Assembly: GCF_009827635.1 (NCBI RefSeq)
Contig: NZ_WTYW01000001.1
Span: 824,001-888,000 of the forward strand
Reading direction: 5' to 3'
DNA from: Parapontixanthobacter aurantiacus
GTDB taxonomy: Bacteria > Pseudomonadota > Alphaproteobacteria > Sphingomonadales > Sphingomonadaceae
Length of the DNA stretch: 64,000 bases
Shown: positions 40,776-60,996 of the stretch, one piece after another
Layout of the letters: each line of letters opens with the position of its first letter
How positions within the stretch are numbered: the stretch's first letter is position 1
Made by a program: the position numbers and the translations under genes
Notes under the pieces: generated by a model
The model's database searches: none
Told to the model about the DNA's origin: nothing
What the model saw: the letters and a program-made list of their open reading frames with translations, nothing else

Positions 40776-40822
40776 GTGGTGGACGCACTAGGGTTCGAAC
40801 CTAGGACCCGCTGATTAAGAGT
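40776..40822 (-). repeat. attL: displaced 3' half of tRNA-Lys
   Basis: A 47-bp copy of the tRNA-Lys(CTT) 3' half (anticodon loop, variable and T arms, acceptor strand with CCA), matching 60920-60966 without gaps at 44 of 47 positions. The last 20 bases (40803-40822) are identical. The three differences are a compensated T-stem pair (tRNA position 51-63) and T-loop base 59. It lacks the 5' half and is not a functional tRNA. Confidence 0.93.
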
Positions 40823-40935
40823 TTTGTGGCCCTCGTTTCAACGAATTTCAGCCACTTTCCGAAAGCCGCACAAATTCGGTCCTATTCCCGTTGTGTTCTC
40901 GCAGTTGTTTTCGGTTGGCTTCCGTTAGGTTCCGG

Positions 40936-40948
40936 TATATCGATTACG
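40936..40948. promoter_or_regulatory. TATATCGATTACG motif upstream of integrase
   Basis: The 13-bp TATATCGATTACG recurs exactly at 52466-52478 before the late operon. It begins with a -10-like TATAT. It ends 23 bp before the integrase ATG at 40972, or 2 bp before a possible GTG start at 40951. Confidence 0.45.
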
Positions 40949-40971
40949 CAGTGATTACGTGGACTGCGATC

Positions 40972-42273
40972 ATGGCCCGACTGAAGCTTACTTTGACGAC
41001 TGTTCCCAAGGCAGCGATCCCCGAGAAAGGCGACGCCTATTACTGGGACACTGAACTTCGGGGCTTCGGTCTTCGCGTCACGCCACGCGGTGTTCGATCC
41101 TATGTGCTTCAGTATCGTTTGCCGGGTCGCAATGCGCGCAGGCTCACTATCGGTATTCATGGTTCGCCATGGACGCCGGAAAAGGCGAGGGGGCGCGCCG
41201 AAGAACTGCTGTACGATGTTAAGCGCGGAGACGATCCGGTTCTCGCTGCACGCAAGCGTGCACGCGAGGCGGTCGATTTGGAATTTTCCAAGTACGTGGA
41301 CACGTTCACGGACGCCTATCTTAAATCGGAATGGCGGGATTCGTGGGCGGATGCAAAGCGCCAATTGGAACTGCATGTCATTCCGCACCTGAGGGGGCAG
41401 GCGCTGCCTGAGATTGAAAAGGCCGATCTGGCGCGTGTCATTCGGCGGTTGAGCGATAGGCCCGCTCTTGCCCGCAACACGCATGCGACGCTTCGTAAGC
41501 TGTTCGCTTGGGCTGTCGATCAAGGTGACCTAGTTTCCAGTCCGATCCCTGCTGCCCCGCCAGGTGTGAAGGCCAGAAAGCGCGTCCTGTCACCCGATGA
41601 AATTGTTGCGCTCTGGCAAGCGAGCTTCGAACTGGCCCGCCCGATGGGGCAATTCGTGCGATTGTTGGTAACTACTCTACAGCGACGCGGAGAGGTCGCC
41701 GGATTGCCATGGGCTGAGTTAAACAGCCTAAAAAAAGTCTGGATGCTTGATGGCGAACGCGCGAAGAATGAGGACGATCATCTTGTGCCGCTCAACCCGC
41801 TTGCCGTTGCGGTCCTTGCTGAAATGGCGAACGCTACCGGGCATGAGGCGAAGCGTTGGCCGCGTAAGGGGCTGGTGTTCTCAACTACCGGCGCAACGCC
41901 GATTTCCGGGTTTTCAAAGGTTAAAAAGCAACTCGACCGCGAGATGCTTCCGATCCTTCAGGATATGGCGGACAAGCGGGCCGATGCGCTCGGAGACGAA
42001 CGTGAGCTTGTGTTGCTTCGACCGTGGCGCTTTCATGACATTCGCAGAACCGGAACGACGCAGATGCAGGCACTGGGTGTTCCGATTGAGGTGACCGAGA
42101 AGGTCATAAATCACAAGTCTGGCGAAACTGCGGGCATCCGTGGCGTCTACAACCTACACGCTTACACCGATGAGAAGCGCGACGCACTCGAAGCGTGGGG
42201 TGCATATTTGGAGAAGCTCATTGCGCGCGCGAGCGCGCCGAACGTGATCGCACTCGCCAAAGGGCGGGCGTGA
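40972..42273 (+). CDS. P4-type tyrosine site-specific integrase
   Basis: Integrates and excises the element at tRNA-Lys. The 433 residues show an N-terminal arm-binding DUF4102-type domain (DTELRGFGLRVTPRGVRSYV), a SAM-like core-binding domain (~100-190) and the catalytic domain. The catalytic residues are Arg in TTLQRRGEVAGLPWAEL, the HxxR in FHDIRRTGTTQM, His in VINHKSG and the tyrosine in GVYNLHAYTDEKRDALEAW. Start ATG 40972 (MARLKLTLTTV); an in-frame GTG at 40951 is possible. It stands directly inside attL and reads inward, as is normal for such islands. Confidence 0.95.
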   Translation: MARLKLTLTTVPKAAIPEKGDAYYWDTELRGFGLRVTPRGVRSYVLQYRLPGRNARRLTIGIHGSPWTPEKARGRAEELLYDVKRGDDPVLAARKRAREAVDLEFSKYVDTFTDAYLKSEWRDSWADAKRQLELHVIPHLRGQALPEIEKADLARVIRRLSDRPALARNTHATLRKLFAWAVDQGDLVSSPIPAAPPGVKARKRVLSPDEIVALWQASFELARPMGQFVRLLVTTLQRRGEVAGLPWAELNSLKKVWMLDGERAKNEDDHLVPLNPLAVAVLAEMANATGHEAKRWPRKGLVFSTTGATPISGFSKVKKQLDREMLPILQDMADKRADALGDERELVLLRPWRFHDIRRTGTTQMQALGVPIEVTEKVINHKSGETAGIRGVYNLHAYTDEKRDALEAWGAYLEKLIARASAPNVIALAKGRA

Positions 42274-43343: not shown

Positions 43344-43556
43344 ATGGAAAACGACGACGACAAGCTGCTTACAACTGAACAGCTCGCATCTCTGCGCAAT
43401 GTGCCTCCCAGCCGCATCGAAAAGGAACGCCTGAAAGGTGAAGGGCCGGCCTTTATTAAAGATGGCCACTTAGTCCGATACAGGCTCGGCGATTACCGCT
43501 CTTGGATCGCCTCGAAGCAACGGTTCACATCTACCTCTGAGCAAGCGGCAGCGTGA
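43344..43556 (+). CDS. AlpA/MerR-type small helix-turn-helix regulator
   Basis: A 70-residue protein of the AlpA/excisionase-like fold. LLTTEQLASLRNVPPSRIEK forms the HTH, and LKGEGPAFIKDGHLVRYRLGDYRSWI is the wing typical of such regulators (GPAFIK...YRLGDYxxW). In P4-like islands AlpA activates integrase or excision genes. It opens the replication module; the next gene starts 3 bp downstream. An extended hairpin precedes it. Confidence 0.85.
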   Translation: MENDDDKLLTTEQLASLRNVPPSRIEKERLKGEGPAFIKDGHLVRYRLGDYRSWIASKQRFTSTSEQAAA

Positions 43557-43898: not shown

Positions 43899-44158
43899 CC
43901 GCCCCCCTCGACGAGTTCTATCACGCGTTGCAGCCTTGGGATGGCAGGTGGTTCGTCAAATTGCCCGACGCCGGACCTCGCTTGCTGACGCTCACCCAGC
44001 ATACGGCGCTCCAAATACTTCGCGGACGTACCGGTCTGACGAACTGGGATGCCCGCCTTCTCCAGACTATCGCCACGACTGAGGGCGAACTGTCCAGCCT
44101 GCAACGGCATTACCTCGATCGACTGGCCCGCGAACATGACGAACGGGTGACGGCATGA
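43895..44158 (+). CDS. Small hypothetical element protein before the primase
   Basis: An 87-residue mostly helical protein (MTAPLDEFYHALQPWDGRWF; LQRHYLDRLAREHDERVTA). Not recognised. It overlaps both neighbours by 4 bp (ATGA at each end), so it is translated as part of the replication operon and is likely a partner of the primase or helicase. Confidence 0.72.
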   Translation: MTAPLDEFYHALQPWDGRWFVKLPDAGPRLLTLTQHTALQILRGRTGLTNWDARLLQTIATTEGELSSLQRHYLDRLAREHDERVTA

Positions 44159-45069
44159 CCGGGCGGCTCGATCTGGAAGCCATCCGCGAGAGCAATCCGC
44201 TTCCGACGGTCGTGGGCGGCGTCGTTGAACTCAAGCGCGCAGGGAGGGAGTGGAAAGCCTGCTGCCCGTTCCATAGCGAGCAAACCCCATCCTTCACAAT
44301 ATACAGCAACGGTCGTCGCTTCATGTGCTTCGGGTGCGGAGCGGAAGGTGATGTTTTCGACTTCGTATCGCGCATCGAAGGTATCGGCCTGCGCGATGCT
44401 GCCTTGCGGCTCGGCCAGGGGGAGGTGGTTACCACGAACATCGCTCCCCTTCCTCCGGCGAATGACGAAGGCGATCGGACCGAGGAAGCACGGTCGATCT
44501 GGCGCAACGCCGTTCCGGCGACGGGAACTCCGGTGGAGGCCTATCTGCGCTGGCGTGGTATCTCGATCCCAATTCCCGAAACCATCCGCTTCGCACGGCT
44601 GCAATACGGGAAGCGCGGGCGGGAATATCCTTGCCTCGTCGCGGTCGTAACCGGCCCGGATAACCGGCTTTGCGGTATCCAACGCACTTACCTTGCCGAC
44701 GATGGCCGGGGGAAGGCTGACGTTCCGAAGCCGAAGCTGTCGCTCGGTCGTGTCCGGTGCGGCGCGATCCGACTGGCACCGGTCTCTCGCCACCTGACAG
44801 TGTGCGAAGGCCTTGAGGATGGCCTGTCGTTGCAGGAAGCGATTGGCGGGCCTGTCTGGGTGGCCTGTGGCGCATCGAACCTGCCGTCGATGAGATTGCC
44901 GGATTTCGTGCGGGACGTAGCAATCGGAGGCGACAACGATGCGTCCGGTAGGGCCGCTGCCGAGAATGCTGCGCGGACAATGAGCGCGAGGGGTCATGGC
45001 GTGCGGGTTTTCTATCCCAGCCCGCCCCACAAAGATTTCAACGAAGAACTAAAGGAGTCGCGCGGATGA
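44155..45069 (+). CDS. CHC2 zinc-finger/Toprim primase of the element
   Basis: A 304-residue primase-like protein. The zinc finger is CCPFHSEQTPSF...FMCFGCGAEGDVFDF (residues ~36-70). The Toprim acids are in LTVCEGLEDGLSLQEAIGG and AIGGDNDASGRAAAENA. It lacks the helicase domain fused in phage P4 alpha and gp4-type proteins; the adjacent DUF3987 protein probably supplies that role. The ATG overlaps the previous stop and its own stop overlaps the next start. It is distinct from chromosomal dnaG at 25439. Confidence 0.9.
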   Translation: MTGRLDLEAIRESNPLPTVVGGVVELKRAGREWKACCPFHSEQTPSFTIYSNGRRFMCFGCGAEGDVFDFVSRIEGIGLRDAALRLGQGEVVTTNIAPLPPANDEGDRTEEARSIWRNAVPATGTPVEAYLRWRGISIPIPETIRFARLQYGKRGREYPCLVAVVTGPDNRLCGIQRTYLADDGRGKADVPKPKLSLGRVRCGAIRLAPVSRHLTVCEGLEDGLSLQEAIGGPVWVACGASNLPSMRLPDFVRDVAIGGDNDASGRAAAENAARTMSARGHGVRVFYPSPPHKDFNEELKESRG

Positions 45070-46589
45070 GTGCTGCGACGATGAAAGCCGCTTATGAGAA
45101 TGCGGAAGTGATTTCGATCTGGCCGCAAGCCGATATGTCGGTTCTGAACGAAGGACGACGCAGCCCAGTCGCGATGCCGGCCGATCTGTTCGGTCCTGCG
45201 TGGCCCTTGCTCGTGACGGTGGCTGAAGGGGTCTGCACCGCTCCCGATTATCCCGGAATGGCGCTGCTGGCTTCCTGTGCAAGCCTTATCGGGGGCAAGC
45301 GCCGCATTCGGCCTTATGACACCGCGGCGTGGAGCGAACCGTGCATCCTGTGGTGCGGCGCTGTCGGTGACCCCAGTTCGCGCAAGTCGCCTGCGCTCGA
45401 TCAAATAACCGCGCCCTTGCGAACGTTGGAGCAGGCAAAGGCCGACGATCACAAAGATGCGTTGCGCGAGTTCCAGGAACGCAGTGAATGGAACAAGCAG
45501 ACGAGGAAGCGCTGGCAGGACGAGGTTGCCGAAGCGATCAAGAACGGCCTCGACAAGCCCAAGATGCCGGAGGATGCCGAAGATCCCGAAGAGCCGCATC
45601 GACGGCGTACGCTCACGATGGACAGCACGCCGGAAGCGTTGGGCGCGATCCTGCAAGGCAACCCTCAAGGCGTTCTTTCCTTTCGTGACGAGCTGGCTGG
45701 ATGGCTCACTTCGCACGAACGATACAGTCCGGGAGGACGAGAGTTCTGGCTTGAGGCATACGGAGGCCGCCCGTTCGTAATCGATCGGAAGGGAACGAAG
45801 GGTCCAATCTCGATACCGTTCAACGGGGTCTCTGTCCTCGGGGGCATTCAACCTGCGAAGATGGCGGACGCATTGTTGTCGTCGCCGGATGACGGACTGG
45901 TCGCTCGCTTCCTGTGGGCATGGCCCGATAAGGTGCCGAGCGTTCGCCGCCCTCGCGAAGCGGCCGATCTGGGGCGGCTACAACGGGCATACGAACGACT
46001 GGACAGCCTTTCTTGGGCAAAGACCGCCGAAGGGGCAAATATTGCCCTGACGCTTCCCCTAGCGCCGCCTGCGGCTGATCTGTTCGAGGCGTGGCAAGCC
46101 GACAATGCAGCGATCGATCAGGATGCTTCCGCGCTGTTCAAGTCCTTTGTCGGCAAGATGGACGGAGCGGTTCTGCGGCTGGCGCTGGTCGGAGAGTTCA
46201 TCAGCTGGGCCTTTTCGGACGATCCGGAACCTTCCGAAGTATCAGCCTACGCCCTCGCCGCAGCCGCCCGGTTCGTGGACGACTATGCAAAGCCGATGTC
46301 AGAAAGGGTCTACGGCGATGCTGCGCTTCCTGCTGTCGAACGGCACGCGGCATTGCTCGCCCGGTATATCCGTCGCTACCAGTTCAAGACGATCAACCTG
46401 CGAACGCTGAAACAATCGCCTCACAAATCGCGCCTGTCGGCTCTACGGCAAGGCGACACGATGCGGGCGGCAGCGGAATATCTCGTCGATGCCGGATGGC
46501 TTCAGCCGGCTCCACGACGGGAAGGTGATACCACGGGGCGAACCAGTCTCGACTTTGCCGTCAATCCGCAAGTGCTGGAGGCTGAATGA
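45066..46589 (+). CDS. DUF3987 P-loop ATPase (replication helicase-like)
   Basis: A 507-residue DUF3987 protein. CGAVGDPSSRKSPALDQITA is the Walker-A-type motif, and GVLSFRDELAGWLTSHERY with FWLEAYGGRPFVIDRKG contains the Walker-B-like acids. A coiled-coil insert (FQERSEWNKQTRKRWQDEVA) follows the Walker A region. The C-terminal ~80 residues are winged-helix-like. With the upstream primase it forms a split primase-helicase, as in many integrative elements; it is likely needed for replication after excision. Confidence 0.87.
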   Translation: MSAATMKAAYENAEVISIWPQADMSVLNEGRRSPVAMPADLFGPAWPLLVTVAEGVCTAPDYPGMALLASCASLIGGKRRIRPYDTAAWSEPCILWCGAVGDPSSRKSPALDQITAPLRTLEQAKADDHKDALREFQERSEWNKQTRKRWQDEVAEAIKNGLDKPKMPEDAEDPEEPHRRRTLTMDSTPEALGAILQGNPQGVLSFRDELAGWLTSHERYSPGGREFWLEAYGGRPFVIDRKGTKGPISIPFNGVSVLGGIQPAKMADALLSSPDDGLVARFLWAWPDKVPSVRRPREAADLGRLQRAYERLDSLSWAKTAEGANIALTLPLAPPAADLFEAWQADNAAIDQDASALFKSFVGKMDGAVLRLALVGEFISWAFSDDPEPSEVSAYALAAAARFVDDYAKPMSERVYGDAALPAVERHAALLARYIRRYQFKTINLRTLKQSPHKSRLSALRQGDTMRAAAEYLVDAGWLQPAPRREGDTTGRTSLDFAVNPQVLEAE

Positions 46590-47302: not shown

Positions 47303-48085
47303 ATGTTTCAATGCCGGGATACGCATGGCGAACTTCTGCTTGCCACGCCACCGAGGGTAAACACCCAATCGAGCTTATCGCTTTACGAGGGCCTTGTGCG
47401 GGAAAATGCGAGTGAAAGCGAAAAGGACTTTTCCATCGATCTGATAGTCACCGGAGCGCAACGTGCCTCCGTGTGCAGTCTCATCAATGAAAAATACGGG
47501 TGGCGAGGCTATGGGTCCAACCATGATTTGGGTGCGAACGGGCATTGTTCCACATTCGTAGCGCTTCTGGAAGGTTCGCTGGTTGGCACCTTATCATTGA
47601 CGATCGATAACGGAGATCAATTGGCCTCTGAAGCGAGTTTCCCCGATTTCATCGCTCAATTTCGCTCATCGCCGGGCGTCAAGTTATGCGAACTCACCAA
47701 GTTCGCTTTCTCATCGAAATCCACTCCGATGAACATTTTAGCGTCCCTGTTCCATACGATCTTTATATACGGAACCACACGTTACGAATGCACAGACCTT
47801 CTGATTGAGGTCAATCCGCGTCACATTCGCTTTTACGAGACGATGCTGGGTTTTAGTAAGGTCGGCACGATGCGGACTAATTGTTCGGTTGGTGCGCCTT
47901 CCCAACTTATGCGGCTGAACGTCTGCGATATCGGCAAGTACATTCAGGAACATGCGGGCTGCCGAGCGCCATCGGGCAGGTCGCTCTATCCGTATTTTCT
48001 GACGGCGGCACAGGAATGTTTGATACACGAACGGATGGCTGACCTTGGACCAAATTCGCGTTTTGATATTCTGAATGCCTCTTGA
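47303..48085 (+). CDS. FeeM-type N-acyl amino acid synthase (GNAT/autoinducer-synthase fold)
   Basis: A 260-residue acyltransferase of the FeeM / exosortase-associated acyltransferase type. Expected reaction: acyl transfer from acyl carrier protein to an amino acid, giving an N-acyl amino acid. Diagnostic stretches: SLINEKYGWRGYG, LVGTLSLTIDNGDQLASE, VKLCELTKFAF and LLIEVNPRHIRFYETMLGF. It follows 200 bp of AT-rich non-coding DNA and is AT-richer than the replication genes, so it is cargo. A hairpin terminator separates it from the convergent PEPxxWA-CTERM gene. Product and acyl chain are unknown. Confidence 0.85.
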   Translation: MFQCRDTHGELLLATPPRVNTQSSLSLYEGLVRENASESEKDFSIDLIVTGAQRASVCSLINEKYGWRGYGSNHDLGANGHCSTFVALLEGSLVGTLSLTIDNGDQLASEASFPDFIAQFRSSPGVKLCELTKFAFSSKSTPMNILASLFHTIFIYGTTRYECTDLLIEVNPRHIRFYETMLGFSKVGTMRTNCSVGAPSQLMRLNVCDIGKYIQEHAGCRAPSGRSLYPYFLTAAQECLIHERMADLGPNSRFDILNAS

Positions 48086-52490: not shown

Positions 52491-53045
52491 ATGCGAACGG
52501 AAATGCTCAACTTTCGGGTCACCCCCGAGCTCGTGGAAGCGCTGACACGAGCAGCGCAGGCCGAAAAGGTAAGTCGCTCCGAATTGATGCGCCGGGTCCT
52601 TACGGAGAGAATTGGCAGTCGTGGGGTCGAGGTTGCGCCCTTTGATCCCATCGAGACCCCCAAGCTGGCCGCGAGAGGCCATATAGCCGCCCAACGGTCG
52701 ATGGCCTGCCATGCTTGGGAGACCGTCAACCAGAACGAGCATGATCCAGCCCTGCGCGTCATCGGCTTCGTCGAGGCGCTGACCTTCGCCCGGATGGCCG
52801 CGTTGCAGGGTGAGCAGCGGGACGCCGAAGTGTTCGTGTTCCTCCTGTCGCAGTTCGCCGCGTTCCAGAACGAGCAGGGTCGCTCCGACATCGGCACGCG
52901 CTTTGAAGCAGCGGCGCTCAACGCAGCGAACATCCTCGCCGACGAAGGTAACGAGGCGATGGCCGACATGATCGCCCGTTCAGGCGACACACTTGACCCT
53001 GCCATTTTCGCAGAAGCACGACGCCAGAGGGAGGCTGTCCGATGA
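52491..53045 (+). CDS. Ribbon-helix-helix N-terminal protein, first of the late operon
   Basis: A 184-residue protein. Residues 1-42 (MRTEMLNFRVTPELVEALTR; SRSELMRRVLTERIG) are a ribbon-helix-helix DNA-binding domain; the remaining ~140 residues are helical (MACHAWETVNQNEHDPALRV; MAALQGEQRDAEVFVFLLSQ) with no known family. The stop overlaps the next start (ATGA). Opening the operon for the polyvalent protein, it may be a regulator or a DNA-packaging co-factor; the sequence does not decide. Confidence 0.82.
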   Translation: MRTEMLNFRVTPELVEALTRAAQAEKVSRSELMRRVLTERIGSRGVEVAPFDPIETPKLAARGHIAAQRSMACHAWETVNQNEHDPALRVIGFVEALTFARMAALQGEQRDAEVFVFLLSQFAAFQNEQGRSDIGTRFEAAALNAANILADEGNEAMADMIARSGDTLDPAIFAEARRQREAVR

Positions 53046-54040
53046 CACTCGATACCCGTATTCCATTAATGGCGGCCCAAGGGGCGCAGGTGAACCTGGC
53101 CGACATCGCGCAACAGGCCGAACGCTACAAGGCACTGCGCGCCCAGCGGGAGGCGTTCGAAGCCGAGACCGAACGCAAGACCAATGCGCGCAAGTCGCTG
53201 GCCGACCTGATACTGTCGCAGCATGAACAGGCACCGGGAACGCGGTTTGGCGAGGAACGCCCTGCGGTTCCGCCTGAAGGCCTACCGGACAATCGCGCGA
53301 TCACGCCCTACCCTCTGACGAACCCGGCGGCGATGGGCATGAGCGATACGCCTGCAACCCGCATCGCCATGAGCGGCCAGCCGCAGCAGGAAGAAAAGCC
53401 CGATCCGTGGGCGGAATACGTGAAGTACGACCCGGAAGGCGCGATCGACTTTCGCGCAAGCACGGCGGAATGGCAGCAAAAGCAACTGGAAACGGCGAGC
53501 GACCTGAACGAGCAATCGATGCAGTTGCTCGGCGGCGTTCACGACCAGCCCAGCTACAACCGGGCGCGTGCGATGGCCTACCGGCTCTATAGCCAATACG
53601 GTATCGATCCTGCGCAGTTACAGCTGCCTGACCAGTATTCGCCCGAACTCGTTCGCGAGTTGCAGATGCAGGGAATGGAGACGCGCAAGCAGCTTCAAAC
53701 CGTCCTCGACGAGCGCAAGCTGGATTGGGACATCGAGGATGACCAGATCGACAACGAGCGCATGGACCGAAACACGGACAGCCTCATCGACACGCGCGAG
53801 GAGCGGCTGGACGAATACCGCCGCGCGAACCGGGTGCGGGAAGCGACGACGCGGCGCGGTCAGGACTTGACCGACACGCGGGTGAGGCGCGGACAGGACA
53901 TCAGCAGCCGAGACCGCCGCCGGGGGCAGGACATTCGGCCAACGCGTGGTAACCGGCAGGGACCGGCGCGACCAACCGCGACCGATGCGAACGGGAACAA
54001 GATCCAGTTCGACGGCAAGAAATGGGTTCCGGTCAAGTGA
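53042..54040 (+). CDS. Coiled-coil phage-type internal virion protein candidate
   Basis: A 332-residue, highly charged helical protein. The N-terminal half has MTLDTRIPLMAAQGAQVNLA, typical of proteins that precede ejection proteins in podophages. The C-terminal half is a coiled coil (ELQMQGMETRKQLQTVLDER) leading to repeats around RRGQDLTDTRVRRGQDI and ending ANGNKIQFDGKKWVPVK, a common phage virion-protein tail. Its stop overlaps the giant gene's GTG (GTGA). I infer a partner of the giant protein in the virion or during injection; there is no enzymatic motif. Confidence 0.72.
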   Translation: MTLDTRIPLMAAQGAQVNLADIAQQAERYKALRAQREAFEAETERKTNARKSLADLILSQHEQAPGTRFGEERPAVPPEGLPDNRAITPYPLTNPAAMGMSDTPATRIAMSGQPQQEEKPDPWAEYVKYDPEGAIDFRASTAEWQQKQLETASDLNEQSMQLLGGVHDQPSYNRARAMAYRLYSQYGIDPAQLQLPDQYSPELVRELQMQGMETRKQLQTVLDERKLDWDIEDDQIDNERMDRNTDSLIDTREERLDEYRRANRVREATTRRGQDLTDTRVRRGQDISSRDRRRGQDIRPTRGNRQGPARPTATDANGNKIQFDGKKWVPVK

Positions 54041-57000
54041 GCCTGCCGCCCCTTCCGCCGGGGTTCACCCTCGTCGAGTCTGCAGAGGAAATGCCGAAGA
54101 AGAAGGCGAAGCGCATTCCGCCGCCGCCCCCCGGCTTTACGCTGGTCGATCCGGAAGCGACGGATGGCGATACGGTGAAAGCGGGAGAAATACGCGTTCG
54201 CCTGCTGGGCGTCGATGCGCCGGAACTCAGACAGCAGGGCTGGGACCGCGATGGCCAGCCCATCCCGATCGGAGAACAGTCACGGGCCGCACTGGCTGAC
54301 CGGCTCGGCAATGGTCCGGTCGTCATGGGCGATACGGCGCATATGTCCTACGGACGCCCGGTCGCTCCGCTGACGATGGATGATCGCGATGCAGGACTGG
54401 CGATGCTCGAAAGCGGCAATGCGGTGGTCGTGCCGCAATACCTTCAGGATCAGCCGCAACGCCTTGCCGACTATGCGGCTGCGGACAGGGGCGCTCGCCT
54501 CAACCGGCGCGGTCCGTTGCATTCAACGGTCAACCAGTCGCCGGAGGAGTTTCGCGCCGATCCGGACTATGTTCCGGAGCGCGAGACCATCGCGAAGTTC
54601 TGGGACACGCCGACGCCAAACAGCGGCTTGTCGGCGGAAGCCGAACAGGAATATCTGGCACTGCTGAAGACCGGAACGGCTGACGAGATCATTGCCTTCC
54701 TTGCCCGCAACGGTCACGCGACCCGCGAGGACGAGTTGCGCGACTGGGTGGCGAAGCGCGATGCCGATCCCTCCTCGGTCAACGCTTCCGTGCTCTACGA
54801 AAGCGGCGTGCGTATTCCGATCGATTCCGGCGACGGCGCAGGCGGGGCGGCGGTGCGCGGTTTCGCGGAAGGCTTTCTGGCTGGGGGTCTTGATGAGGCT
54901 GGCGCCATTGTCGATACGCTGGGCGGAACGGCTGGGCGCGAAAGCGTCTGGAACAGCGACCGGCGGCTGGCCGATATATGGCTCAACAACCAACAGCAGA
55001 ACGCAGCGATCCTCGACTACGATCAGGGCAACCATCCCTATGCCGCGACCGGCGGCGAGATTGCCGGGGCGCTGACCTCGGGTGTGGTCATTCCCTACGG
55101 ACAGGCAGCACGCACGGTCCCGCAGTTGGCGAAGGTCGGCGCGGTTTATGGTGGTGCGGAAGGCTTTCTCGGAACGGACGGTTCGACGGCTGACCGGCTG
55201 ACGGGTGCGGCCATCGGGGTTCCGGCTGGGGCTATTGTCGGAGCGGTTGGTGGTAAGGCGATCGAATACGGCGCTCCGATCGTTGCGCGCGGTTATCGTG
55301 CTGTGACGGGCAGGAACGGCGACAGGGGCACGAAGGCGGCAGGAGAGGCTGTCGAGGGCTATGGCGAGGAACAGGCGCTCGATGCAGCGCTGGACATGCC
55401 GCAGGGGCGCGATATTCCCCCGCCCCCTCCCGGCTATCGGATCGACGCAATGCCGATGGAAATGGAGGCCGCGCCCTCGGTCTCGGCAATCCCGGAAGGC
55501 ACGACACGCCGCCTGCTCGATCCGGCAACCGACGCCGAACGTCTGGCAGCTGCACAGAACGTCCAGCCAAACGATGTTCTGCCGTTGCCGGGTAATGCGG
55601 TCGATGGGGTCGAGGAAGCTGCTGCGATCGATGCAGGACGCTTCGCACAGGCGAAGCCGCTGGATGAACGCAAGGCCTTGGAACGCACCACCATCCGTTC
55701 CTATGACGGCAAGGAGGTTCCCAAGGTCGGCCCGCTCGACATGGTGGGCTGGCTAAGGACGCAGGGCGGTCTGCGGGACGAAGGCGGCGAACTGTCGTTC
55801 ATGGATCTGAACAATGCGCCTCGTCGCGGTCTCGATCATGTTGGACAGGAGGCACGGTTCGGTCCGCTGGTGAACGACGAGGGCATGAGCCTCGACGATG
55901 CCGCCTTGCAGGCATGGGAAGCAGGTTACTTCCCGGAACTCTCGGACCGTCCGGACATCAACACGTTCCTCGACGCGCTGTCCGATACCTACAACGGTGG
56001 TGCCGGTCGTCGCTTCCGTCCCGAAGATGCGCCGGAAGTGGAAGCGTTCGATGCGCTGCGGACAGAACGCCTGCAACTGGAACAGGAGATTACCGAGCGA
56101 GGGCCAATCTACGAGGATCGCGGCATTGCCTCGGACGATGCACCGTTTCCGCCGGTCGAGGCTTACGAGGAATGGCCATCCGATGCGATCGAGCGGGTCG
56201 GCAATATCGATGTATCGAAGCTGGAGACCCCGCAGGACATACGTCGCGCGCTCAAGACCTCCTACAATGCCGTGGGCGGGTTCGATGCGGCGACACGCGG
56301 ACGGGTGACACAGGCCGAGACCGAACGGCTGGCCTCGGAATTGAACATGACTCCCGAACAGCTGCTGTCGCGCCGAAAGGGCCAGGCGTTCAACGCGGAA
56401 GAGGCATTGGCCGCACGGCAGATACTGGCGAAGAGCGCGAACGAACTGGTGAACGCGGCGAAGCGGCTGAAAGCGAGGGGCGATGACCCCGGTGCGGAGG
56501 AACTCGCGCGGTTCCGGCATATCTGGACGCGCCATGTCGCCATTCAGGAATCGGTTGCGGGCATGACGGCGGAAGCCGGTCGAGCATTGCAACAGTTTCG
56601 CCAGGCAGCGGACAGTCGGCAGTTTCGTGGCGATGTTCTCAACGCTCTCGTTCGCGCGGGTGGTGGCGGCGATCGTTTGCAGGACACTGCGGACATCATC
56701 ATCGATGCAGCGGAGCTCTCGCCGGGTAAGTTCAATGCGCTGGTGAAGAAGGCGGCGAACCCCAAGTTCAAGGACAAGGTTGCCGAACTCTACATCAATA
56801 TGTTGCTGTCGAACCCTCCTACGCACATCGTCAACATGGTCAGCAATAGCCTCACGGCCATCGCGCAGGTTCCTGAATACGCCACTGCTTCTGTCATCGG
56901 TGCAGCACGCAAAGCCGTCCTCGGCAAGGCGGCGAAAGAGCAAATTCTGGGCAGCGAAGTGGGAGCGCGCGCTTTCGGACTTATCCAAGGCGCGAAGGAA

Positions 57001-58839
57001 GGGGCAAAGCTTTTCGCAAGAGGATTGCGGACCGGCGAAGCCGACGACTTCGTATCGAAGGTCGAGGGTGACGAGTACAAGGCCATTAGCGGGAAGAAAG
57101 GCGAAGTCATCCGTCTCCCTACGCGGTTTCTGACGGCAGAGGATCAGTTCTTCAAGGGCATCGCGCGGCGGATGGAACTGAACGCACAGGCCCTCCGCAT
57201 TGCTCACCGAGAGGGATTGAAGGGGGAAGAACGCGAAGCCCGAATTGCGGAACTGCTGGCTGATCCAACGGACGAGATGTTCGAACGTGCGCTGGAATAC
57301 GGACGCTACCTGACATTTCAGACCAAGCTTGGACCTTTCGGCCAAAAGATTTCCGGAATGACCACTGATAGTTTGTTCGCGAAGGTCATCATTCCGTTCG
57401 TGCGAACTCCGATCAACCTGCTGAAATTCGCCGTCGAGCGCTCTCCGGCCGCACCGGCCCTCGCAGAATGGCGGAAGGAATTCGTGGCGGGCGGTTCGCG
57501 GCGCGATCTGGCGATTGCGAAGGCCATGCTGGGAAGCGGCTTCGCAGCGGTGATCTATGAGGCTGCGCTGGATGGACGGGTGACAGGCAGCACGCCGCCA
57601 AACTCCGGGAAGGCGCGGCTGCTCTATGCCGATGGCTGGGAGCCTTATTCCATCAAGGTGGGCAACCGTTGGATCAGCTACTCTCGGATGGACCCGTTCT
57701 CGACAACGATCGGCATGGCAGCGGACCTCGCAACGCTTCCCGACAATTTAAGCGAACGGCAACGCGACGATAAGTTAATGATGGTCACTGCCTCGTTCAT
57801 GAGCAATCTGGCGAGCAAGGTATGGCTGTCCGGGGTCTCTTCCTTCGTCGAGGGCTTGAGCGATCCGGGGCGTTATGCGGATAACTGGCTCAACCGGACT
57901 GTCGGTGCCTTCACCGTGCCAGCCGGGGTTGCAGGCGTTGCTAGGGCTATCGATCCTGTCTCACGCAAACGGGAAAGCATCGGGGAAGCCATCCGCTCGC
58001 GCATTCCGGGATTGAGCAGCGATCTCCTTCCCCGTCGCGATGTCTTTGGCAGGCAGATCGAGTTCGATAGCTTGGGGCCTGATATCCTGTCGCCATTCTG
58101 GCAGTCGGAAGCGAAGAACGATCCCGTCGTGGCCGAAATGCTGAGGATCGGAAAGAACGTGAGCGCCCCCGGTAAGCAATATACCGAGAACGGGGAGAGG
58201 AAAGACTACACGCCGGAAGAGTACGATCGCTACCACGAATTAGCTGGACGGCTGACGCACGAGGGATTGGCCGAACTGATTGCGTCGGACGAATATGCCG
58301 CGATGAACATTGCGCAGCAGAACAAGGCGGCGAAGAAAGCGATTCGTGAAGCCCGTGAGGCAGCACGCGAAGAACTGTTCGGCAATGGAGACGGGGCAGA
58401 AGCCGCCGGGGGGTCGGATGGGGCGATTCCTCCCCCGCCTCCGGGCTTCGCGATAGAAGGGGAAAGCGGGGGCCGCAATGTGTTCGCGGACCTGAAGGAC
58501 GCTATCCCCGGCATTCGCTTCACCAGCGGCTATCGCGACCAGGCCTACCAGGACGACATGCGGCGCAGAGGATATAAACCCGCATGGAATAGCGAACACC
58601 TCGACGGTTCCTCGCTCGACATGCTGCCGCCTCCCGGCAAGTCGATGGAATGGCTGAAGGCACAGGTTCGCCGCTACGATCCCAAGGCGAAGCTGCTAAT
58701 CCATGATGGACACCTGCACGCCAGTTTTCCGGGCTACTACGGCGCTCCAACATTCGAGGGCGCGCGGGACGCAGGGCTGAAGAACCCGCTCGAAGGCATG
58801 CCACCACCGCCTCCGGGTTTCACGCTGGAGGTGCAATGA
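54037..58839 (+). CDS. 1600-residue polyvalent/ejection protein (nuclease-like, polyvalent-domain and M15 peptidase-like modules)
   Basis: A phage-type polyprotein-like protein. From GTG 54037 (GTGA overlap; ATG 54022 is an alternative) five proline motifs occur near residues 4, 28, 461, 1463 and 1588: LPPLPPGF, PPPPPGF, PPPPPGY, PPPPPGF, PPPPPGF. Residues ~42-145 resemble a staphylococcal-nuclease fold (TDGDTVKAG, IRVRLLGVDAPEL, YGRPVAPL). A Gly/Ala-rich segment near 270-400 may insert in membranes. Residues ~905-1000 hold YINMLLSNPPTHIVNMVSNS, the mark of phage large polyvalent proteins. Residues ~1485-1570 resemble M15 D-Ala-D-Ala carboxypeptidases: SGYR, S-x-H1521-x-x-G-x-x-x-D1528, H1559-x-H1561. 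It is intact and likely injected with DNA, crossing peptidoglycan. Confidence 0.85.
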   Translation: MSLPPLPPGFTLVESAEEMPKKKAKRIPPPPPGFTLVDPEATDGDTVKAGEIRVRLLGVDAPELRQQGWDRDGQPIPIGEQSRAALADRLGNGPVVMGDTAHMSYGRPVAPLTMDDRDAGLAMLESGNAVVVPQYLQDQPQRLADYAAADRGARLNRRGPLHSTVNQSPEEFRADPDYVPERETIAKFWDTPTPNSGLSAEAEQEYLALLKTGTADEIIAFLARNGHATREDELRDWVAKRDADPSSVNASVLYESGVRIPIDSGDGAGGAAVRGFAEGFLAGGLDEAGAIVDTLGGTAGRESVWNSDRRLADIWLNNQQQNAAILDYDQGNHPYAATGGEIAGALTSGVVIPYGQAARTVPQLAKVGAVYGGAEGFLGTDGSTADRLTGAAIGVPAGAIVGAVGGKAIEYGAPIVARGYRAVTGRNGDRGTKAAGEAVEGYGEEQALDAALDMPQGRDIPPPPPGYRIDAMPMEMEAAPSVSAIPEGTTRRLLDPATDAERLAAAQNVQPNDVLPLPGNAVDGVEEAAAIDAGRFAQAKPLDERKALERTTIRSYDGKEVPKVGPLDMVGWLRTQGGLRDEGGELSFMDLNNAPRRGLDHVGQEARFGPLVNDEGMSLDDAALQAWEAGYFPELSDRPDINTFLDALSDTYNGGAGRRFRPEDAPEVEAFDALRTERLQLEQEITERGPIYEDRGIASDDAPFPPVEAYEEWPSDAIERVGNIDVSKLETPQDIRRALKTSYNAVGGFDAATRGRVTQAETERLASELNMTPEQLLSRRKGQAFNAEEALAARQILAKSANELVNAAKRLKARGDDPGAEELARFRHIWTRHVAIQESVAGMTAEAGRALQQFRQAADSRQFRGDVLNALVRAGGGGDRLQDTADIIIDAAELSPGKFNALVKKAANPKFKDKVAELYINMLLSNPPTHIVNMVSNSLTAIAQVPEYATASVIGAARKAVLGKAAKEQILGSEVGARAFGLIQGAKEGAKLFARGLRTGEADDFVSKVEGDEYKAISGKKGEVIRLPTRFLTAEDQFFKGIARRMELNAQALRIAHREGLKGEEREARIAELLADPTDEMFERALEYGRYLTFQTKLGPFGQKISGMTTDSLFAKVIIPFVRTPINLLKFAVERSPAAPALAEWRKEFVAGGSRRDLAIAKAMLGSGFAAVIYEAALDGRVTGSTPPNSGKARLLYADGWEPYSIKVGNRWISYSRMDPFSTTIGMAADLATLPDNLSERQRDDKLMMVTASFMSNLASKVWLSGVSSFVEGLSDPGRYADNWLNRTVGAFTVPAGVAGVARAIDPVSRKRESIGEAIRSRIPGLSSDLLPRRDVFGRQIEFDSLGPDILSPFWQSEAKNDPVVAEMLRIGKNVSAPGKQYTENGERKDYTPEEYDRYHELAGRLTHEGLAELIASDEYAAMNIAQQNKAAKKAIREAREAAREELFGNGDGAEAAGGSDGAIPPPPPGFAIEGESGGRNVFADLKDAIPGIRFTSGYRDQAYQDDMRRRGYKPAWNSEHLDGSSLDMLPPPGKSMEWLKAQVRRYDPKAKLLIHDGHLHASFPGYYGAPTFEGARDAGLKNPLEGMPPPPPGFTLEVQ

Positions 58840-59018
58840 TGGCCGGACCTATTGGCGCTATTGACCCTATTGGCTCGCGTGCCGCTACCGGACCTTTTGT
58901 GCCTATTGTTCCTTTTGTGCCGGACAGTCTTGGCGACTTTTCGATCGATGAGGAGTTCGACGCCTTCGACTGGCTGCGCGAGTTTCCTCGGCCGATGAGC
59001 GATTACGACGATGGCTGA
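58836..59018 (+). CDS. Small Pro/Val-rich element protein
   Basis: A 60-residue protein: repeats PIGAIDPIG and FVPIVPFVP, then an acidic end (FDAFDWLREFPRPMSDYDD). It overlaps both neighbours (ATGA at the start, 8 bp at the end) and so belongs to the operon. Not recognised. The N-terminal half is encoded by short direct repeats (58849-58921). Confidence 0.6.
   Translation: MMAGPIGAIDPIGSRAATGPFVPIVPFVPDSLGDFSIDEEFDAFDWLREFPRPMSDYDDG
58849..58921. repeat. Short tandem and spaced repeats in the 58836 gene
   Basis: Three tandem 9-mers CTATTGRCN (58849-58875), then CCTTTTGTGCC at 58893 and again at 58911. A second 9-bp-period array in the element, sharing GTGCC with the units at 46672-46698. 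Confidence 0.5.
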
Positions 59019-59445
59019 CGATCCGAAAACAAACGGTCGGAAAACGGATGGCACGTTCGCTGAGGGCAATTCGCTGGGCGGTCGCAAGCCCGGTGCGCGC
59101 AACAAGGCGACGCTGGCCGTCGAGGCTTTGCTGGAAGGCGAGCACGAGCAGCTGACCCGCGCCGCAATCAGCAAGGCGCTGGAAGGCGACACGGCTGCGC
59201 TGCGTCTGTGTCTCGATCGCATTGCACCGCCACGCAAGGACAGCCCGGTGACGTTCGACCTTCCACCCATTTCGACTGCCGAAGATGCGCTGAAGGCTTC
59301 TGCTGCATTGCTGAAGGCCGTCGCGGCTGGGGAAGTGACGCCCGACGAGGCAGGACGGGTCATGGCATTGCTGACGGCGCACAAGGCGCTGGTGGAAGCC
59401 GGGGATCTGGAAATGCGGATTGCAGCATTGGAGAACAAGCAATGA
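59011..59445 (+). CDS. DUF5681 domain protein
   Basis: A 144-residue member of DUF5681, common in prophages and islands. The N-terminal KTDGTFAEGNSLGGRKPGAR with RNKATLAVEALLEGEHEQLT is diagnostic; the C-terminal part is helical (VTPDEAGRVMALLTAHKALV). Its position and DNA-binding-like basic N-terminus recall small terminase subunits, but no large terminase is present, so a packaging role is only a possibility. Stop overlaps the next start by 4 bp. Confidence 0.86.
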   Translation: MADDPKTNGRKTDGTFAEGNSLGGRKPGARNKATLAVEALLEGEHEQLTRAAISKALEGDTAALRLCLDRIAPPRKDSPVTFDLPPISTAEDALKASAALLKAVAAGEVTPDEAGRVMALLTAHKALVEAGDLEMRIAALENKQ

Positions 59446-59936: not shown

Positions 59937-60812
59937 CTATGCGGGCCGGTCTTGTTGATCGGCGCGGAGTTTTTCAGCGTAACGATAGCCGGCGTCCGTG
60001 ATAAAGTAGACTTGGCCCTTTCCTGAGCGATCTTCGATAAAAAACTTGGACTCGAGTTGATCGACTGCGCTTTTCCATGCGGCTCTTCCTCGAGCGTCAC
60101 AGCCTTCGGCAAAATTTATCCCGTTTGTCTGTATCAAGTCGCCATTGAGGAAGTGCCCAACCATCACAACGCCCTGATTGTCGTTGATCCCTGCCTTTAG
60201 CAACGTCTTCGCTTCTTCACTGATTTGATGCTCGTCTTCATCAGGAAGTCCGGGCAGGTCGCTGATCGAAAAACCTGCAACTGCACGTTGGAGGTTCTTC
60301 AGATAAGGATCGTCACGAAGGGTCAACTGCAGGTGACGAGCAAAAGCGACCCTAAATTCGTCTTGCGTGTCGTAGCTATGAATTAGCCCTTGTTCTGCGC
60401 ACCAAGCTTTAAAGTCCTGCAACGCATCGTATTGACTTCGATCTAAGGAATCGGGAGCCACGGGCTGCTGCGAGAAGTACACCATGACCGGCTTACCAGC
60501 AGCCATGTGGCGTCGAATCTCTTCGACGGTCCCGCTGGCCGCTTCGCCAGTTGGTGTACCTAATCGCGTCCAGAATACGCCCACCAAGAGATCGCAATGC
60601 TCCAATACACGGTCGTTGATCAGTTTTTGGGGCCGGTCACCTAAAGCCGGTGCTGAATGAGTCTCCCAACCAACTGGTAAAAGCACGCACCGGCGGTCTG
60701 CGGCATGCACATCATTCCATGTATGGATCGTTTCGCGAATTGCTTGGCGCTCTCGTTGCACGTCGCCTGGCGAAGCAATCATCACGTTGATAACTTTCGC
60801 ATCAAAACTCAC
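59937..60812 (-). CDS. DUF4062/TIR-like protein with C-terminal winged helix, defence candidate
   Basis: A 291-residue protein, GTG start at 60812. The N-terminal ~170 residues have the DUF4062 layout: first strand VINVMIASPGDVQRERQAI, LEHCDLLVGVFWTRLGTPTG, then GTVEEIRRHMAAGKPVMVYF, a TIR/Rossmann-like fold with a Glu in a conserved position. The C-terminal part (VDQLESKFFIEDRSGKGQVY; FITDAGYRYAEKL) looks like a winged helix. Proteins of this kind often act in anti-phage or abortive responses. It lies beside attR, on the opposite strand to the element operons and AT-richer, the usual place for accessory cargo. Function not proven. Confidence 0.72.
   Translation of the reverse strand: MSFDAKVINVMIASPGDVQRERQAIRETIHTWNDVHAADRRCVLLPVGWETHSAPALGDRPQKLINDRVLEHCDLLVGVFWTRLGTPTGEAASGTVEEIRRHMAAGKPVMVYFSQQPVAPDSLDRSQYDALQDFKAWCAEQGLIHSYDTQDEFRVAFARHLQLTLRDDPYLKNLQRAVAGFSISDLPGLPDEDEHQISEEAKTLLKAGINDNQGVVMVGHFLNGDLIQTNGINFAEGCDARGRAAWKSAVDQLESKFFIEDRSGKGQVYFITDAGYRYAEKLRADQQDRPA

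Positions 60813-60919: not shown

Positions 60920-60996
<77 letters not shown>

Follow-up and report, generated by a model that had tools for sequence, protein, structure and literature searches.

We analysed a 64,000-nucleotide (nt) stretch of the Parapontixanthobacter aurantiacus genome (contig NZ_WTYW01000001.1, positions 824,001 to 888,000, forward strand; hereafter the window), in which a 20.1-kb element, with a 47-nt repeat of the 3' part of tRNA-Lys at either end, carries a giant gene encoding a protein with repeated proline-rich motifs. An earlier note on this DNA had described five such motifs and offered them as processing sites, linkers or docking signals. Translation of 54037-58839 yields 1600 amino acids (aa), and an alternative ATG at 54022 yields 1605 aa; the five motifs do lie in this one frame at the places described. 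The giant gene, its parts and the gene that precedes it are listed here, with evidence in brackets (AF2, AlphaFold2; dN/dS, ratio of nonsynonymous to synonymous substitution rates).

53042..54040, plus strand: preceding gp15/gp20-like ejection protein, 332 aa, overlapping the giant-gene start (one homologous cluster in 21 elements; AF2 helical body)
53975..54037, plus strand: class-1 C-terminal tail TATDANGNKIQFDGKKWVPVK, proposed receptor of the PPPPPGF peptides (AF2; co-variation)
54022..58839, plus strand: giant internal virion / ejection protein (gp16-like), 1605 aa (ATG) or 1600 aa (GTG at 54037) (PHROG 6651; dN/dS)
54046..54066, plus strand: head copy 1, PPLPPGF(TLV), residue 4 (translation)
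54118..54138, plus strand: head copy 2, PPPPPGF(TLVD), residue 28 (translation)
54193..54513, plus strand: SNase domain, residues 53-159 (Pfam PF00565, E 2.3e-8)
55417..55437, plus strand: middle copy, PPPPPGY(RID), residue 461 (translation)
57109..58290, plus strand: conserved internal-virion-protein core (PHROG 6651, internal virion protein, E 6.9e-33)
58429..58449, plus strand: copy 4, PPPPPGF(AIE), residue 1465, before the M15-like module (translation)
58468..58740, plus strand: M15-like peptidase module (weak: homologue matches, ChiX, HxxG...D and HxH residues)
58801..58821, plus strand: copy 5, PPPPPGF(TLEVQ*), residue 1589, at the C-terminus (translation)

The five copies follow the pattern PP[LP]PPG[FY]; the spelling PPPPPGF given earlier holds for copies 2, 4 and 5, but not for copy 1, which reads PPLPPGF, or copy 3, which ends in Y. 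All five use differing codons, and none appeared in 3000 composition-preserving shuffles. Between loci, codon identity at the motifs (0.32-0.47) was at the background of the same residues elsewhere (0.32-0.43), bearing out the claim that the motif is kept at the protein level.

The modules between the motifs were confirmed to differing degrees. The SNase-like module was recovered by Pfam at residues 53-159. The presumed polyvalent core exists as a conserved region, but its match is PHROG 6651 and not a named LPD domain: no LPD domain was found in the giant protein, SNase being its only Pfam match, and searches with the whole protein against Pfam, NCBIfam and PDB returned SNase or nothing. (A PPPPPGF-headed protein elsewhere, at our locus L106, does have LPD38.) The M15-like peptidase stands weakly, with PF08291 just under the cut-off in the homologues L045 and L054, ChiX at E 0.13, and HxxG...D and HxH residues visible on inspection. 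The core matches 58 phage records, many labelled internal virion protein D, and is about 25% identical to T7-like marine internal virion proteins. A dN/dS of about 0.11 between pairs of homologues shows that the family is maintained. Judged by core homology, and by its location directly after a gp15/gp20-like gene, the giant protein is a podoviral gp16-like internal virion or ejection protein.

The gp15/gp20-like label of the preceding protein rests on position, size and a helical model, with no family match behind it; phrog_598 DNA ejection genes adjoin the giant-gene homologues in L047 and L091. In the AF2 model a helical body is followed by a disordered linker and then, C-terminally, by three short strands, with a predicted local distance difference test score (pLDDT) of 81-88 over residues ~310-332. 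The model suggests that a flexible linker carries the class-1 tail as a WW-like mini-domain of three strands, although no sequence similarity of the tails to WW, to other known families or to known structures was found.

Head and tail types in related elements

Close homologues of the giant gene were found in about 20 genomes of the same bacterial family, in similar elements of ~15-24 kb. The earlier note had set such homologues as the test of whether the motifs keep their positions. The sites proved to be conserved: a pair close to the N-terminus, one beyond the N-terminal region, one or two ahead of the M15-like module and one at the C-terminal end. The peptides that fill them change type: besides the proline (P) type, they include LPxGFxLD, D[PE]W[AS]EFE (e.g., DPWAEFE), WPGxxV and DDSDFEIVS. 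On the core tree the P and tryptophan (Trp) types require five switches. N- and C-terminal copies change type together, and the copies distal to the gene junction (middle, pre-M15 and C-end) mostly share the head type. The motifs bracket the modules, as had been claimed; in L054, L091 and L092, where the M15-like module has moved to the N-terminus, LPxGFxxE copies stand on both sides of it.

Across the 21 elements the upstream proteins are homologous and form one cluster, yet they divide into two classes by their last ~25 residues, and head type fits tail class in 21 of 21. The class-1 tail ('TATxxxGxkixWnGkxWVPv') accompanies P-like and DFEIV heads (12/12, with degenerate tails in L010 and L054), and the class-2 tail ('sTPaEArkLPkGTkFrtPDGrVk') accompanies Trp heads (9/9).

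These observations bear on two of the functions offered earlier. Proteolytic processing that frees the nuclease, core and wall-hydrolase modules would account for motifs that bracket modules, and ejection proteins can be processed, as is P22 gp7 (PMC4992974). The idea is nevertheless unsupported, because the same sites in sister proteins hold chemically unrelated peptides; apart from the M15-like module, no protease turned up among the element's genes, and the match with the upstream tail would be left unexplained. We regard processing as barely credible, and the delivery of modules as released fragments is likewise unsupported. Flexible proline-rich linkers or spacers that have no partner would likewise suit motifs at module borders and termini, and AF2 confidence is low at the motifs, though it is low across the whole model (N-terminal 526 aa, 3-row alignment, mean pLDDT 33). 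Plain linkers fit poorly, however, with the retention of an exact GFx[LIV][DE] core, with copies at the extreme C-terminus and with a motif type that co-varies with another protein's tail, and we consider them very improbable.

Matching in unrelated viral contigs and P22-like phages

A search for the motif in other phage proteins, suggested by the earlier note, found P-heads in unrelated viral contigs of IMG/VR, which we scanned heads-first (matches counted by eye) and then tails-first. Heads-first, the expected tail lay upstream of 15 of 16 P-heads and all six DPWAEF heads; in the exception, L133, the class-1 tail sits one gene further upstream. Tails-first, a P-head came next after 40 of 41 class-1 tails ('ATNPxTGE...WNGxWVP') and a Trp-head after none, whereas class-2 tails ('LPxGTxFxxPDG') were followed by a Trp-head in 88 of 90 cases and never by a P-head. 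Among 2248 control genes, 1% satisfied the P-head rule and 26% the looser Trp rule. Of the two class-2 exceptions, one (L278) has a mis-called start and the other (L242) carries a repeated head of a new kind, 'APIPLDENG'. Exactly two head copies were present in 34 of the 41 class-1 partners.

The head-tail match is, in these sequences, independent of the protein bodies and of DNA-level similarity. Both tail classes occur within one cluster of upstream bodies (76; 51+25) and both classes within one cluster of downstream bodies (66; 46+20), and in each the split between P-head and no P-head is perfect. At 49 further loci, among them that of the named phage Pan3, the roles are swapped: the downstream protein carries the class-1 hairpin as its N-terminal head, and the upstream protein ends in P.G[FYAMW] in 47 of the 49. 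No class-2 role swap was seen in the scans. Since the halves trade places across the same protein pair, they are most simply complementary binding partners.

Two sets of pattern matches were set aside. A marine ~200-aa protein, '[AI]IPPPPG[FY]RIDVKTT' (L108-L223, many), has a single motif and apparently belongs to an unrelated conserved family; the DNA pattern WNGxxWVP, tried as a tail probe, mostly matched tail-fibre repeats and was replaced. Other repeated N-terminal heads were also seen, namely DDSDFEIVSsP, FKPILLRSQQ, IPxSLKxK, APIPLDENG and FDDL[VI]PA, at L093 (8616-12425), L095 (8885-12295), L001-L003, L242 and L590. At L569, L573, L252, L285 and L328 an M15-like peptidase reading frame closely follows a class-1 or class-2 tail motif, which suggests tail-bearing proteins with an added wall hydrolase.

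The upstream protein at L499 is PF16928, the P22 injectosome translocase, and matched pairs recur among P22-like phages in further groups: P22/BTP1; Sf6/L/ST104/ST160/S9-5/HK620/611R6/CUS-3 (CUS-3 from CP000711); Emek/phiSG1; and E212. P22 and ST160 have bodies 92% and 80% identical but differ in tail and head alike; P22 and BTP1 have bodies only 45% and 36% identical, yet their tails are 82% and their heads 72% identical. The heads of CUS-3 and HK620 are 98% identical, and their gp20 proteins are near-identical. In published exchanges, P22 carrying Sf6 gp16 alone or Sf6 gp20 alone was non-functional, while both together were functional, and P22 gp20 requires its last 33 aa (PMC10883804). The P22/Sf6 literature that we searched holds no description of matching terminal peptides in these pairs.

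One might instead suppose that tail and head move together in a single block of DNA, the junction being a recombination cassette whose peptides have no joint function. Most pairs do flank one gene junction, and P22-like phages are highly mosaic at the gp20/gp16 junction (PMC10883804). Against this, codon identity at the motifs is merely background, distal copies have the same type at a distance of 4.5 kb, pairs separated by one or two genes remain matched (L052, 1228 nt apart; L133, 624 nt), and neither the swap of polarity nor the functional incompatibility of P22 and Sf6 would be expected. We judge the cassette quite improbable.

Docking between consecutive ejection proteins

Because head type co-varies with the tail of the preceding gene, both in relatives and in unrelated phages, docking is strongly favoured among the functions first offered. 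We put at about three in four the probability that the PPPPPGF copies are matched docking peptides between consecutive ejection proteins, a docking that probably serves the carriage of DNA into the cell. Repeated heads at conserved sites, switching of their type, the head-tail match and the role swap are all evident in the sequences, and we infer in addition that binding is direct and multivalent, that the tail has a WW-like fold and that docking takes place in the virion or in the course of delivery. The PPPPPGF[T/A][L/I][V/E] copies would act as docking 'heads' of an ejected internal virion protein, and their partner would be the class-1 tail at the C-terminus of the immediately preceding protein (53042-54040). 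Several peptides may bind several tails, joining a gp15/gp20-like conduit protein to a gp16-like protein either inside the virion or during assembly of the ejection conduit. Virions of P22 hold ~30 copies of gp20 and ~12 of gp16 (PMC4992974), an excess that would be compatible with several tails per gp16.

Several points weigh against docking. (i) The pairing evidence is at the level of sequence, with direct physical binding drawn from it. (ii) The tail fold was modelled by AF2 from a single sequence, and the profiles of both tail classes found no sequence match in PDB. (iii) L093 pairs a DFEIV head with a class-1 tail, and in L011 and L049 the middle copy stays P-type though the ends are Trp-type. 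(iv) In most pairs, tail and head lie on either side of one gene junction, so that genetic linkage contributes, and the non-adjacent pairs number two. (v) The gp15-binding tape of T7 consists of gp16 residues 157-228, away from the extreme N-terminus (PMC8954989).

An unlikely alternative is that tail and head each bind a common third virion component (portal, a gp7/gp14-like protein or the inside of the coat) and serve in packaging or targeting. The cargo peptides of encapsulins and of T4 provide a precedent. P22 gp7 strongly affects the incorporation of gp20, and the E-proteins lie near the portal (PMC4992974). Role-swapped pairs, however, are most simply complementary partners; furthermore, Sf6 gp16 is still packaged into P22 virions without Sf6 gp20, and these virions are non-functional (PMC10883804), indicating that pairing matters after incorporation.

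More generally, we find it more probable than not that tailed phages wire consecutive ejection proteins with a few orthogonal, exchangeable docking codes, comprising at least P/WVP, Trp/LPxGT and three P22-like ones. In one of these codes a WW-like phage mini-domain would read PPPPPGF-type ligands and the halves could be swapped between proteins, and satellite-like elements would carry a coded pair of their own. The motif strings had no occurrence in phage papers of the open PMC literature (subscription journals lay outside the scope). Few virion proteins diverge as strongly as the ejection proteins, and to our knowledge little is known, outside T7, of how their parts recognise each other. A readable peptide code, if true, would predict which ejection proteins work together, explain the incompatibility of P22 and Sf6, help to locate ejection genes in dark genomes and open the gp15/gp20-gp16 interaction to direct tests with short peptides.

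The carrier element and comparison with known systems

The remaining features of the element are these (att, attachment site; HTH, helix-turn-helix).

40776..40822, no strand: left att copy, 47 nt (direct repeat, 94% identical to 60920-60966)
40891..42273, plus strand: tyrosine integrase (PF00589, PF13356, phrog_1)
43344..43556, plus strand: AlpA/excisionase-like HTH (phrog_66, E 5e-6)
44155..46589, plus strand: primase and helicase genes (phrog_510, phrog_2373)
59011..59445, plus strand: DUF5681 protein (Pfam PF18932, sub-threshold, E 4e-4)
60920..60966, no strand: right att copy, within tRNA-Lys 60921-60996 on the minus strand (direct repeat)

The DUF5681 protein is possibly small-terminase-like. 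Pfam and PHROG searches of the element's genes gave no match to portal, capsid or TerL families, nor were such matches found in the other elements of the family (L044-L068, L088-L093, L103), which carry an integrase, an AlpA-like HTH, primase/helicase or prim-pol, the ejection cassette and DUF5681, as judged by inspecting gene calls; some related elements have tail-fibre-like genes. A distant homologue (L097/L100) lies in a full podovirus-like contig, and its protein does not have the repeated motifs. With an integrase, AlpA, a primase or replicase and discrete att sites, and no structural head genes, the gene content resembles that of phage-inducible chromosomal islands, which makes the elements candidate phage satellites. 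A satellite-like element carrying the giant gene would bring its own matched ejection pair, and the family is flagged here as encoding its own DNA-delivery proteins.

Apparent cargo includes a FeeM-type N-acyl amino acid synthase (47303-48085; PF21926, E 6e-39) and, at L048 (5462-6064) and similarly in L053 and L057, a gene resembling an SOS-response-associated peptidase (MCNLYR...). A DUF4062-like gene beside the right att copy (59937-60782, minus strand) is possible defence cargo.

Phage-inducible chromosomal islands and other satellites share with this family the integrase, the AlpA-like regulator, the primase, possibly a small-terminase-like gene, a size of 15-24 kb and the lack of a detected capsid, portal or TerL; the element here differs in bearing an ejection-protein cassette. 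The docking domains of modular polyketide synthases pair a C-terminal element with the N-terminal element of the next protein in orthogonal classes, as we propose here, but the phage sequences differ, are used in virion DNA ejection and can swap polarity. The eukaryotic ligands of ALG-2, GYF, WW and EVH1 readers (PxPGF / PPGx) have a nearly identical core, and the predicted phage receptor, like WW-type readers, is a three-stranded, Trp-bearing mini-domain; the phage tail is only ~23 aa, however, and the resemblance is a lead rather than membership based on homology. P22 gp20/gp16 (Lederbergvirus, PF16928 Inj_translocase) has the same gene order and matched tail and head classes, although the P22 and Sf6 peptides differ from PPPPPGF/WVP. 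The 'molecular tape' of T7 gp16 cements gp15, whose C-terminal region it stabilises (PMC8954989). While that tape is an extended internal segment (157-228) without repeated PPPPPGF, the T7 gp15/gp16 ejectosome is alike in that the large protein uses its N-terminal part to bind and order the conduit of gp15 (PMC8954989), as proposed for the giant protein here.

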